Shown piece by piece: positions 33,026 to 38,818 of a DNA stretch of 64,000 nucleotides. The first letter of the stretch is position 1, and each line of letters opens with the position of its first letter. The notes under the pieces are model-generated. The model made no database searches. It worked only from the letters and a program-made list of their open reading frames with translations, and was not told the origin of the DNA. The position numbers and the translations under genes were made by a program. The stretch covers positions 372,001 to 436,000 of the forward strand of contig NZ_FOYT01000002.1 of the NCBI RefSeq assembly GCF_900112175.1, given 5' to 3'. This stretch comes from Halogeometricum rufum. Its GTDB lineage: Archaea > Halobacteriota > Halobacteria > Halobacteriales > Haloferacaceae.

Positions 33026-33092
33026 GGCTCTGTTGAAACCCTCAGCTGCTGACACTTTGTTAGGGCAGTGCTGAATACACAGCGCGAGTCGG
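33026..33092 (+). repeat. Island repeat copy 2
   Basis: The best-preserved copy: left part GGCTCTGTTGAAACCC, middle GCTGCTGACACTTTG, right core GTGCTGAATACACAGCGCGA (starting 33068) followed by GTCGG. It begins 26 bases after the stop of the zinc-ribbon regulator. Confidence 0.7.
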
Positions 33093-34208: not shown

Positions 34209-34601
34209 GTGAAACGGTTTACAAACTTACACTTGATGTCGGGATGCTCTAAAGAAGACAAAAAGGACGGTGCGATGCGAGCACTGTATGAGCACCTTGA
34301 TGGTGTGGACCCCGTCGATCTCCTTCCGGAGCAGTTCAGGGAGTCACGGCGGTTGGTTCAAGTGACCTTGGAGGGGTCGGGAGACCTATCTGAGGAAGAA
34401 CGAAGGAGAAGTGAGGGCTACTGGCAGCAGGCTAGCATATACGGCCTCGTTGACAGTTGTATCCGGCCTCCAGAGGGTGATACGATCATGATACTTTCAG
34501 TCACCGATGAAGATGAGGCCCAACAATTGGTGCGGAGTGATCCGACGGTCAGCGATGGAGATGTTGAACTTGGTCGAACGAAGTTGTTGTTCGAGGAATA
34601 G
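34209..34601 (+). CDS. Uncharacterised small protein, YCII-like
   Basis: A 130-residue protein with low-GC, weakly biased codon use. The second half (GYWQQASIYGLVDSC, DTIMILSVTDEDEAQQLVRS, DPTVSDGDVELGRTKLLFEE) follows the pattern of the YCII/dimeric alpha-beta barrel fold: a strand, a helix containing DEAQQL and a DPxxxxG turn. That is inference from pattern, not a firm family match. The start is the GTG at 34209 or the ATG at 34236. It lies 30 bp before a 21-codon ORF and the ATP-grasp pair, so it may belong to the same transcript. Confidence 0.6.
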   Translation: MKRFTNLHLMSGCSKEDKKDGAMRALYEHLDGVDPVDLLPEQFRESRRLVQVTLEGSGDLSEEERRRSEGYWQQASIYGLVDSCIRPPEGDTIMILSVTDEDEAQQLVRSDPTVSDGDVELGRTKLLFEE

Positions 34602-34631: not shown

Positions 34632-34697
34632 ATGGAAATACACCGCGTAAGCGTGAACGACACCCATACGATCCAGCGAGGTGCTGTTTTTATATGA
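34632..34697 (+). CDS. 21-codon ORF coupled to the ATP-grasp pair (possible leader or precursor peptide)
   Basis: A short frame MEIHRVSVNDTHTIQRGAVF plus one Ile ends in a TGA that overlaps the ATG of the next gene (ATGA). The same four-base overlap joins the next two genes, so three frames are chained. It could be a leader peptide, a substrate peptide for the ATP-grasp enzyme, or chance. The AT-rich DNA directly before its ATG (TAGAAATATAAAA) could instead be the TATA box of the following gene, in which case this ORF would not be transcribed. Confidence 0.3.
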   Translation: MEIHRVSVNDTHTIQRGAVFI

Positions 34698-35548
34698 ACT
34701 CCTCGAAATTCGTACTTCTAATCAACGCACGAGAAGCGATTGAAGAGATATTGAGCCCAATCATTAAAGAGCGCGGGTTGACACCTTTAGCTGTCTCTGC
34801 ACACGATTTTCTCGCTGCCGAGTATAAGTTCGAGTGTGGTGACGTTCCAACCACCGGATGGATCAACTTCCCCGAACACGGCAAGCGTATAAAGTTACAG
34901 TCTATCGCGGGCAGCTTTGCAGGGTGGTTAAACTTGGACATCGACAGTGATTCTATGTCTCAATTCGAGTTCCAAGAAATATTGGCGTTTATCGCGTTCG
35001 TCCGGCAAAATGCAGGACGCGCGGTCAACCCACCGAACGAAAACATGATTTCGACAAATTGTGGGTCCCTCCCCGAACAGTGGGAAACACTACGGTCAAC
35101 GGATGCAAGCGTACGCATTCCCTCTTGGCGCCTTGACGGCCCAGCCAACCCTCCGATTAGAAACGATGAGATAGCCGTACGTGATATCATGAATCCGCGC
35201 TTACGTAAGAAAAATGATGTATATGAGAATGATAAAAATAGCTTGTTAGTTGAAGAGCCTCGCGGCGTTCTCTCCAGCTGTGCATTTGTAGGTCAAAACC
35301 AACATCATGTACGCGTATCGGAAAATGGGGTGGAACCCGTGGACGTGCTCTCGGACACCCATGATCGATTTACCGAAGTAATCCAAGCCTTACGTCGTAT
35401 ATACTCTCTGGACTATGGAGAGATTTCCTACGCTTATCTCGGAGATGTCCTATTCTGGTCCGTCGCGCCACACCTCCCTGTAGAACATGCCGGTAAAGAT
35501 TCATTTCAGCCATTAATCGAACGTCTGGTTGAGGAATTCACAATATGA
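34694..35548 (+). CDS. Degenerate ATP-grasp-like partner protein
   Basis: A 284-residue protein that follows the layout of a RimK/MvdC-type ATP-grasp protein but lacks the catalytic residues. An N-terminal alpha/beta domain (KFVLLINAREAIEEILSPII) is followed by AVNPPNENMISTNCGSLPEQ and SVRIPSWRL, the positions where active enzymes have NpxxxxxNK and vPxT. The C-terminal part, SSCAFVGQNQHHVRVSENG and LDYGEISYAYLGDVLFWSVA, mirrors the nucleotide-binding half, with WSVAPHLP replacing the usual ExNPxP. No lysine or Glu/Asn metal pair is in place. It overlaps the next gene, a complete ATP-grasp, by four bases; a heteromeric complex is likely. Low GC suggests transfer. Confidence 0.6.
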   Translation: MNSSKFVLLINAREAIEEILSPIIKERGLTPLAVSAHDFLAAEYKFECGDVPTTGWINFPEHGKRIKLQSIAGSFAGWLNLDIDSDSMSQFEFQEILAFIAFVRQNAGRAVNPPNENMISTNCGSLPEQWETLRSTDASVRIPSWRLDGPANPPIRNDEIAVRDIMNPRLRKKNDVYENDKNSLLVEEPRGVLSSCAFVGQNQHHVRVSENGVEPVDVLSDTHDRFTEVIQALRRIYSLDYGEISYAYLGDVLFWSVAPHLPVEHAGKDSFQPLIERLVEEFTI

Positions 35549-36477
35549 AACATCCTCTGCATGAGGGGGTGATTGACCGAAAAGAAGGCCGGATTAGCAT
35601 CACCGATGGCACTTCCGATTCGGCACCTGACCAGTCCATTCGTCATCGCTATCTCGGAACGGGTTGTCCGGTCGTCGTAGCAGCACTGTCGGACGACACT
35701 GCCACTCACTTTTTCAAGATATGCCGCCAAGAGGATTACCCTATTATATGGCTTAGTTATGAAGATTTGTACAACAACTCGATAGCGTTTGATGCCTTCA
35801 GAAGTGCCATCGACAATGCCCCTGGAATTTACTTCCGTGAATCCGGAGATCAAAGGAAATCTGATACCGCTGTAGACGCAGCGATCCGGGCCGTAGTGCG
35901 GCGGAACGAGAACCTGTTGGGCCCTCCACGCTCTGCCACGAACTCGAACAAGCCCGTCCATCTTGATAATCTTCGTACTTCTACGGAGTCATCAGTTACC
36001 GTGCCGCGAACGCAAATTGTATCACGAATACAGAACGGCCGGAGTAAGGTTATGAAAGCAATCAGTGGCTTTCCAGCCTTTACTATAGACGCTGGCCCTC
36101 ATGAGGGCTGCGACGGTGTGGGACCGCTTCTACTGCAGGAGTACTTAACCGGAGATGAGTTGAGGATTCACGCTGTGGATTCGGACTTCGTCAGTCACTT
36201 ACTCAAAAAAAATGATGGTATAGACTATCGCGTCACGGGCTTGGCTGGATTGGAACGAGTGTCCATATCCTCCGGTGAACAAGACGCACTCCGTGATATG
36301 ATGGAGGCCGAAGGCGTACGCTTCGGCGGCATTGACCTCATTCGCAGCAAGAACCGTCTCATAGTCCTCGAACTCAACCCGATGCCGGGATACCATCCCT
36401 ACGAAGCGCGTGACGATGACAATCCAATCACCGAGATGATATATAAAAGTCTTATCAATAATGAGTGTGCGGACTAA
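35545..36477 (+). CDS. ATP-grasp ligase, RimK/MvdC-like
   Basis: A 310-residue protein with the main ATP-grasp features: NSNKPVHLDNL with K136, VPRTQIVS, a second lysine near K169/K171 in SKVMKAISG, LLLQEYLTGDELRIHAVDSD with E199 and R207, and the metal site D264 in FGGIDLI plus E276 and N278 in LELNPMPGYHPYE. The N-terminal third is a divergent pre-ATP-grasp domain (GIYFRESG). Such enzymes join a carboxylate to an amine, alcohol or thiol with ATP, often on peptides. The substrate is unknown. It is the downstream half of a coupled pair with a degenerate homologue, in low-GC accessory DNA. Confidence 0.75.
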   Translation: MKHPLHEGVIDRKEGRISITDGTSDSAPDQSIRHRYLGTGCPVVVAALSDDTATHFFKICRQEDYPIIWLSYEDLYNNSIAFDAFRSAIDNAPGIYFRESGDQRKSDTAVDAAIRAVVRRNENLLGPPRSATNSNKPVHLDNLRTSTESSVTVPRTQIVSRIQNGRSKVMKAISGFPAFTIDAGPHEGCDGVGPLLLQEYLTGDELRIHAVDSDFVSHLLKKNDGIDYRVTGLAGLERVSISSGEQDALRDMMEAEGVRFGGIDLIRSKNRLIVLELNPMPGYHPYEARDDDNPITEMIYKSLINNECAD

Positions 36478-38096: not shown

Positions 38097-38468
38097 ATGT
38101 CGATAGACAGGGAAACATTCGAGAACACAAGCGAGGAAGAACTTACGGGGCTGTCCGTCCCTGACCAAGTCCTCGGATTCCTTGCCGCTCACGACGATAG
38201 GGCATTTGAGGCTCGTGAGATTGCAGCACAAACAGACCTTGACGAGGGTGCGGTGAGTACTGCACTGACGCGCTTGAAGCAACGCGAACTCGTTGAACAC
38301 AAGGCGACGTACTGGGCCGCGACGACCGACGAGGAACGGCTTCAATCGTATAGTGGATACGAGCGAGCGACAGCACTCTTCAACGAACGACTGGGAACCG
38401 AGAACAAGCATGAGTGGCGGGAGCACGCACCGAAAGAAGACCATCCAAGTCTGAGGGACGAGGAGTGA
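38097..38468 (+). CDS. HTH antitoxin-like protein, partner of PemK/MazF
   Basis: A 123-residue winged-helix protein: VLGFLAAHDDRAFEAREIAA, then the recognition helix region LDEGAVSTALTRLKQRELVE, then a wing and a charged C-terminal tail rich in Glu, Lys and His. MarR-like HTH proteins of this size are common antitoxins of haloarchaeal PemK-type toxins; they would repress the operon and neutralise the toxin through the tail. Its stop overlaps the GTG of the toxin gene by four bases (GTGA). Confidence 0.8.
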   Translation: MSIDRETFENTSEEELTGLSVPDQVLGFLAAHDDRAFEAREIAAQTDLDEGAVSTALTRLKQRELVEHKATYWAATTDEERLQSYSGYERATALFNERLGTENKHEWREHAPKEDHPSLRDEE

Positions 38469-38818
38469 CGGACGAAGAGAAACCGCCAACGTACGAACCC
38501 GGAGATGTTGTCTACGGTGACGACCCGTTCAAAGGTGACGAGAACGCGCGTCCGTGGCTCGTCATCTCGAATCACGAAGGACAACCATTCCATGGCGACC
38601 AGTACATTTCGGTAACGTTGACGACGAAGACGTGGCACGAGGAGTTTATCGAGATTCCTGACACGGGTTGGGTTCGTGGTGGAACTCCCGACGAGAGCTG
38701 TATCGTCCCGTGGGGCGTCCAGTCACTCGGAAGCGGAGACATCGACTACTGGCAAGGGACGCTCAACGACGCACTTGTCGAGGACGCAATTCAGTCGTTG
38801 ATTGACTATCTCAAATAG
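38465..38818 (+). CDS. PemK/MazF-family toxin
   Basis: A 117-residue PemK/MazF-like protein: YEPGDVVYGDDPFKG at the N-terminus (normally GdvvxvdfpptxG), ARPWLVISNHEGQPFHGDQY, VTLTTKTW and the end SLGSGDIDYWQGTLNDAL. Members are sequence-specific mRNA endoribonucleases. The start is a GTG that overlaps the antitoxin stop, a standard arrangement for such modules. It is bounded by island repeat copies 6 and 7. Confidence 0.85.
   Translation: MTDEEKPPTYEPGDVVYGDDPFKGDENARPWLVISNHEGQPFHGDQYISVTLTTKTWHEEFIEIPDTGWVRGGTPDESCIVPWGVQSLGSGDIDYWQGTLNDALVEDAIQSLIDYLK

Follow-up and report, generated by a model that had tools for sequence, protein, structure and literature searches.

A putative graspetide-like cassette with a catalytically degenerate ATP-grasp partner in the haloarchaeon Halogeometricum rufum

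The stretch of Halogeometricum rufum DNA analysed here (64,000 nucleotides of contig NZ_FOYT01000002.1, positions 372,001 to 436,000; referred to as the window) contains a cassette encoding three proteins, P0004, P0002 and P0003. The following features are located at the cassette, with coordinates given in the window:

34236–34601, + strand: P0004, a YCII-like protein of 121 aa and putative substrate/precursor, with the N-terminal tail MSGCSKEDKKDG and a conserved C-terminal domain.
34236–34271, + strand: N-terminal Lys/Asp/Glu motif of P0004 (MSGCSKEDKKDG), the proposed cross-linking site.
34632–34697, + strand: 21-codon ORF overlapping the P0002 start, probably no functional part.
34678–34683, + strand: GAGGTG, Shine-Dalgarno-like for P0002 by direct reading, 10 nt 5' of the ATG at 34694.
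34694–35548, + strand: P0002, catalytically degenerate ATP-grasp-like partner, 284 aa.
35545–36477, + strand: P0003, graspetide-type ATP-grasp ligase, 310 aa, catalytic residues intact.

The reading frames of P0004, P0002 and P0003 are all intact, with a GTG at 34209 representing a possible alternative upstream start for P0004. ATGA overlaps chain the 21-codon ORF to P0002 (34694–34697) and P0002 to P0003 (35545–35548), the translational chaining of the ATP-grasp-like pair thus being as first described from the ORFs. The G+C content is ~0.48–0.56 across 34–39 kb, compared to 0.66–0.70 in the flanks. No P0002 homologue was detected in the sampled relatives (391 genomes from the class, 393 from the phylum and 170 from the family); two matches at E 0.0036 were discarded, being located in 1029-aa frames. 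The low G+C and the absence of P0002 from sampled relatives are consistent with the island being foreign DNA, in line with the sequence-only reading, which had placed the pair in transferred DNA. Neither a peptidase nor a transporter was seen among the genes flanking the cassette, and there is no oxygenase gene near it in the window.

Short repeats resembling GTGCTGAATACAGAGCGCGAGT are found between the island genes (window positions 33068, 33976, 36710, 37749, 37930 and 38845), with 15 sites in the genome at ≤3 mismatches and 0 for the reversed control. These are possibly mobile-element remnants. The same island contains a winged-helix gene overlapping a PemK/MazF-like gene (below cut-off) ~2 kb downstream of the cassette (38097–38818), perhaps a toxin-antitoxin pair.

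On sequence grounds, P0003 is an intact ATP-grasp ligase of graspetide-synthetase type and retains all catalytic residues. The ATP-grasp residues named in the sequence-only reading were confirmed, and K136, K171, R207, D264, E276 and N278 do not vary across the 11 homologues aligned. A DFR-like motif is also present, DYR at residues 227–229, and takes the form [DN]Y[RQ] in 11/11 homologues. Pfam RimK (PF08443) is the sole family for which P0003 scores above cut-off (23.7 bits, cut-off 21). It falls far under every NCBIfam cut-off (26 bits vs 425 for TIGR04185 and 15 vs 475 for TIGR04184), including that of the RimK family TIGR00768 (20.3 bits, curated cut-off 143.4), and does not match TIGR04187. 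Among PDB sequences, P0003 is best matched by PsnB (7drm, E 1.3e-6), the graspetide synthetase of plesiocin, with the microviridin ligase MdnC (5ig9) following weakly; a RimK structure is a weaker match than PsnB.

Single-sequence scans of genome and viral contigs with P0003 gave no match. A genome-wide scan succeeded when P0003 was aligned with haloarchaeal ATP-grasps and the alignment used as query, and yielded a Rhizobiales locus (L032). The P0003 homologue at this locus (31% identity, E 8e-32) has a P0002 homologue directly 5' (28% identity over 262 aa), here too with an ATGA overlap, preceded by a YCII-like gene (L032:4671–5054) that is 38% identical to P0004 over 116 aa. Given that P0004, P0002 and P0003 are all syntenic in L032, the conserved unit is P0004-P0002-P0003. 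The conserved third gene for which a neighbourhood survey had been proposed is therefore the upstream YCII-like gene. We note P0004 scores 15.8 bits against YCII (PF03795), under the gathering cut-off of 24. The 21-codon ORF has no counterpart in L032, where just 8 bp part the stop of the YCII-like gene from the start of the partner gene. With no room for a counterpart, the ORF is placed outside the system and was ruled out as the precursor, and the suggestion that it forms a system component was dropped.

Searches of Pfam, NCBIfam and PADLOC gave no model match for P0002. As neither P0002 nor P0004 has any NCBIfam match, both also fail to match TIGR04500, the MirC-type, PpiC-like partner. At the position of the Mg-binding E/N motif the P0002 strand reads VLFWSVAPHLPV, and that of the L032 partner, the sole close homologue of P0002, reads PVFWSVVPQL; both acid and Asn are absent in each case. 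With the Mg-binding residues missing from P0002 and from this homologue, the cassette does not have the two catalytically competent ATP-grasps of a microviridin-type double synthetase.

The partner proteins as a whole split into three sequence groups that are mutually undetectable by sequence. The largest group (seven sequences) aligns end to end with the active-enzyme profile (hhalign probability 96.5, E 7e-10, 275 columns), while the partner from Candidatus Megaera polyxenophila matches the first active-enzyme profile over its full length with 20.5 bits (E 0.0014 for a database size of 100,000). A P0002 model derived from P0002 and one close homologue has a pLDDT of 33, and its first PDB match is MdnC with a non-significant E of 0.38. 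A second model, derived from an eleven-partner alignment that excludes active enzymes but includes partners already known as ATP-grasp-like, has a pLDDT of 56 and a pTM of 0.42 (the plasmid-derived L069 partner was left out of this alignment). The best 29 PDB matches of the second model are all graspetide synthetases (E from 3.6e-7), namely PruB, MdnC, PsnB, AMdnB, MdnB and a Chryseobacterium enzyme. TM-scores are low, about 0.4, and therefore the local fold alone is supported. A predicted structure unrelated to ATP-grasp had been set beforehand as a possible refutation; the best available model matches graspetide-type ATP-grasps. The description of P0002 as a degenerate ATP-grasp thus stands with respect to the missing catalytic set and the PDB matches of the best model, but not with respect to its own profile, as the P0002/L032 partner group alone reaches an hhalign E of 0.06 against the ATP-grasp profile. 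We conclude that an ATP-grasp fold for P0002 is supported indirectly, by modelling and by the profile match of the partner family, and is not carried by its own sequence score.

In a tree of 53 active-type enzymes, the 11 paired enzymes lie on one side of a branch with support 95/93, and the paired/unpaired label changes once, compared to 10.2 times in shuffles. P0003 and the L032 enzyme are sisters (100/99), each on a long branch. The paired clade is nested within graspetide-synthetase-like enzymes, and its sister group includes MvdC/D-annotated enzymes. Solitary P0003 homologues in most genomes had been named in the sequence-only reading as the outcome against a two-subunit ligase; a degenerate partner in fact adjoins 11/11 clade enzymes, and 0 among the other relatives examined.

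Other ATP-grasp loci were encountered outside the paired clade. Overlapping tandem ATP-grasps occur in Thermoplasmata (L036:5473–7283 and L042:2193–4012) and form sister pairs in the tree; these were rejected as instances of the same system, both copies being motif-bearing and outside the clade. Haloarchaeal RimK-like ATP-grasps (L021, L023, L024, L025, L026, L027, L029 and L045) form a separate clade, with each adjoining or overlapping a gene with a GFTWGxT...DYKR-type start. Some of these neighbours carry a HEAGH motif, which suggests an M50-like peptidase, and the loci look like a distinct ATP-grasp and peptidase system. In Halarchaeum nitratireducens (L020:6049–8650), an ATP-grasp gene follows methyltransferase-like and membrane-protein genes and has no degenerate partner.

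The small gene adjoining the enzyme pair was found to have a recurrent composition. Scanning the fetched loci for Lys-acid triplets led to genes adjoining the ATP-grasp pair in a gammaproteobacterial MAG (represented by two near-identical contigs), two Frankia and a Sphingomonas. On a plasmid of Candidatus Megaera polyxenophila (Rickettsiales), MKGCSKDKKDGKDCSKDGKD is followed by the active ATP-grasp, the degenerate ATP-grasp and two 2OG-Fe(II) oxygenases. This layout recurs in Microbispora, two Streptomyces and a planctomycete MAG, where the motifs are less regular (e.g. KEASD, KETSD, KEACD). In total, the enzyme pair adjoins a K/D/E-rich small protein in ten further loci, nine without the near-duplicate. 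By sequence, the set of active enzyme, degenerate partner and small protein is scattered over several very different bacterial phyla; it carries no name in the literature searched. The small neighbours outside the haloarchaeon and the Rhizobiales are K/D/E-rich and do not contain the P0004-type C-terminal domain, with a long K[DE]x repeat forming the core of some bacterial versions. No Pfam model reaches cut-off for the eight small proteins tested. Genes for 2OG-Fe(II)-type oxygenases are present in four bacterial loci (two Frankia, Sphingomonas and Megaera).

The Lys-to-acid spacing in eleven small proteins is enriched at +1 (81 vs 20 expected) and +4 (72 vs 19), although triplet repeats dominate these counts. 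A KDxKDxKD-type DNA pattern, corresponding to three consecutive Lys-acid triplets, was searched in seven whole genomes or records. It is almost exclusive to the gene beside the pair, with 19/19, 7/7, 2/2, 1/1 and 15/19 matches there in five of the seven. L032 contains no run of three such triplets. A KDxKDxKD-like stretch elsewhere in the H. rufum genome (C4:4585) was rejected: its surroundings contain no cassette homologue, and the listed ORFs do not include a K[DE]-repeat protein. The precursors of L050, L054, L064 and L068 share a leader-like motif (IDDAI, IEDAI or LDEAI) upstream of the K/D/E segment, and the actinobacterial members among these end in RPIM or RPMM. Plasmid searches with P0002, P0003 and the Rhizobiales proteins gave no match, and the system was not found in viral contigs or the phage collection.

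The P0004 tail is the counterpart of the K[DE]-rich segments located by the same enzyme pair in the ten other loci. The pattern of donor (S/T/K) and acceptor (D/E) residues that marks a graspetide precursor is clear at the other loci; the P0004 tail is short, with three lysines, and contains no Lys-acid pair at +4 (the nearest being K6-D11, at +5). The tail MSGCSKEDKKDG aligns with the Megaera plasmid peptide MKGCSKDKKDGKD in 10/11 residues with one gap, the matched Rickettsiales segment reading MKGCSKDKKDG, and this match was equalled in 2/2000 shuffles. The L032 counterpart of P0004 begins MSVFSSEGKEGGSDGKEGKDD. Taken together, sequence comparison suggests P0004 is probably the substrate of the enzyme pair via the Lys/Asp/Glu motif in its N-terminal tail.

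Our favoured reading, which we consider reasonably probable, is that the cassette encodes a graspetide-like system: with assistance from the dead P0002, P0003 would link Lys and Asp/Glu residues in the P0004 tail. In graspetide synthetases, an Asp/Glu side chain is phosphorylated and then attacked by a Ser, Thr or Lys side chain (PMC13097080). By the proposed mechanism, ATP-dependent phosphorylation by P0003 would activate Asp/Glu side chains of the P0004 N-terminal tail, and P0003 would join these to Lys side chains through isopeptide links. As Lys and Asp/Glu recur in the small proteins, Lys isopeptides are the natural expectation. P0002, devoid of Mg-ATP-binding residues, would be the non-catalytic half of an asymmetric complex with P0003, either holding the folded domain of the substrate or stabilising P0003. 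At those bacterial loci with 2OG-Fe(II)-type oxygenases, the linked lysines may additionally be hydroxylated, by analogy with corallotide. The modified protein may function where it is made instead of being exported, because no peptidase or transporter is seen among the adjoining genes. Of the possibilities raised in the sequence-only reading, a peptide-modifying system is the one supported. More tentatively, and with rather less confidence than an even chance, we propose a widespread graspetide lineage across bacteria and archaea with an obligate pair of live and dead ATP-grasps, in which the archaeal and Rhizobiales versions would yield a folded YCII-like protein bearing a stapled Lys-Asp/Glu tail and not a released peptide.

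Other explanations must be weighed against this model. It is conceivable, if unlikely, that P0004 is an accessory YCII-like enzyme or binding protein, with the substrate of the ligase pair encoded elsewhere. The C-terminal region of P0004 is conserved and folded-looking, its 38% identity between phyla being unlike a typical precursor, and both the weak YCII match and the shortness of the tail in the window point the same way. However, other bacterial lineages possess a K/D/E-rich small neighbour without that domain, and the P0004 tail matches that of Megaera. We regard it as less likely still that P0003 is a RimK-like enzyme that attaches free amino acids to the end of a protein or to a small molecule, without any internal cross-link. 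Although no family other than Pfam RimK exceeds its cut-off, the solved structure nearest in sequence is PsnB, the tree places the clade with MvdC/D-like enzymes, and the neighbours carry K/D/E motifs.

The low G+C of the island, the lack of homologues in sampled relatives, the short tail and the fact that export or protease genes were not seen could alternatively reflect a decaying import, with the cassette non-functional in this host. This appears improbable, considering the three intact frames, the overlapping starts and the retention of all catalytic residues. Least credible, to the point of being a marginal option, is a defence or conflict system. Foreign DNA and the PemK-like gene ~2 kb downstream could be taken to favour such a role, but there is no PADLOC match and the system was not found in viral contigs or the phage collection. 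The conflict role entertained in the sequence-only reading is accordingly unsupported.

If the proposed cross-linking reading is true, graspetide-like chemistry would extend to a haloarchaeon. The easily recognised K[DE] motif and small cassettes make the system directly testable. The literature searched yielded neither a dead ATP-grasp partner nor a haloarchaeal graspetide case, and articles dealing with graspetide diversity (PMC8939145, PMC13097080) report either two live synthetases or other types of partner. The nearest published parallels are rosaritide and corallotide, both of which need partners, of other folds than P0002. In the corallotide system (cor, graspetide group 15), KxxxD motifs are made into isopeptides and then hydroxylated by a 2OG oxygenase (PMC13097080). 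It resembles the present set in its TIGR04187-type synthetase, in a repeated Lys...Asp motif (PMC13097080), in the 2OG-Fe(II) oxygenase found at four bacterial loci and in a dependence on a partner such as is proposed here for P0003. It differs in that the partner is the oxygenase itself, with no dead ATP-grasp, in its restriction to Corallococcus and in its precursor; the window moreover has no oxygenase. In the rosaritide system (mir, group 21), the synthetase MirB is inactive without its co-purifying partner MirC (PMC13097080), providing a precedent for a partner-dependent graspetide synthetase. The MirC partner is PpiC/SurA-like (TIGR04500), with Ser/Thr-Asp lactones formed and a PCAT transporter present (PMC13097080). 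Graspetide groups 34/35 of PMC13097080 similarly have long precursors with repeated motifs, with the extra protein of group 34 being a DUF or without HMM match. It is possible that the repeat-bearing bacterial members belong to these groups. Microviridin clusters resemble the present cassette in having two ATP-grasps, MdnB/MdnC (MvdD/MvdC), but both of those ligases are catalytic (PMC8939145), whereas one is degenerate here. The graspetide synthetases described in the literature searched work singly, as a pair of live enzymes or with partners of different fold; a lineage always accompanied by a dead ATP-grasp twin would, if true, clearly exemplify a pseudoenzyme incorporated into peptide-crosslinking machinery.
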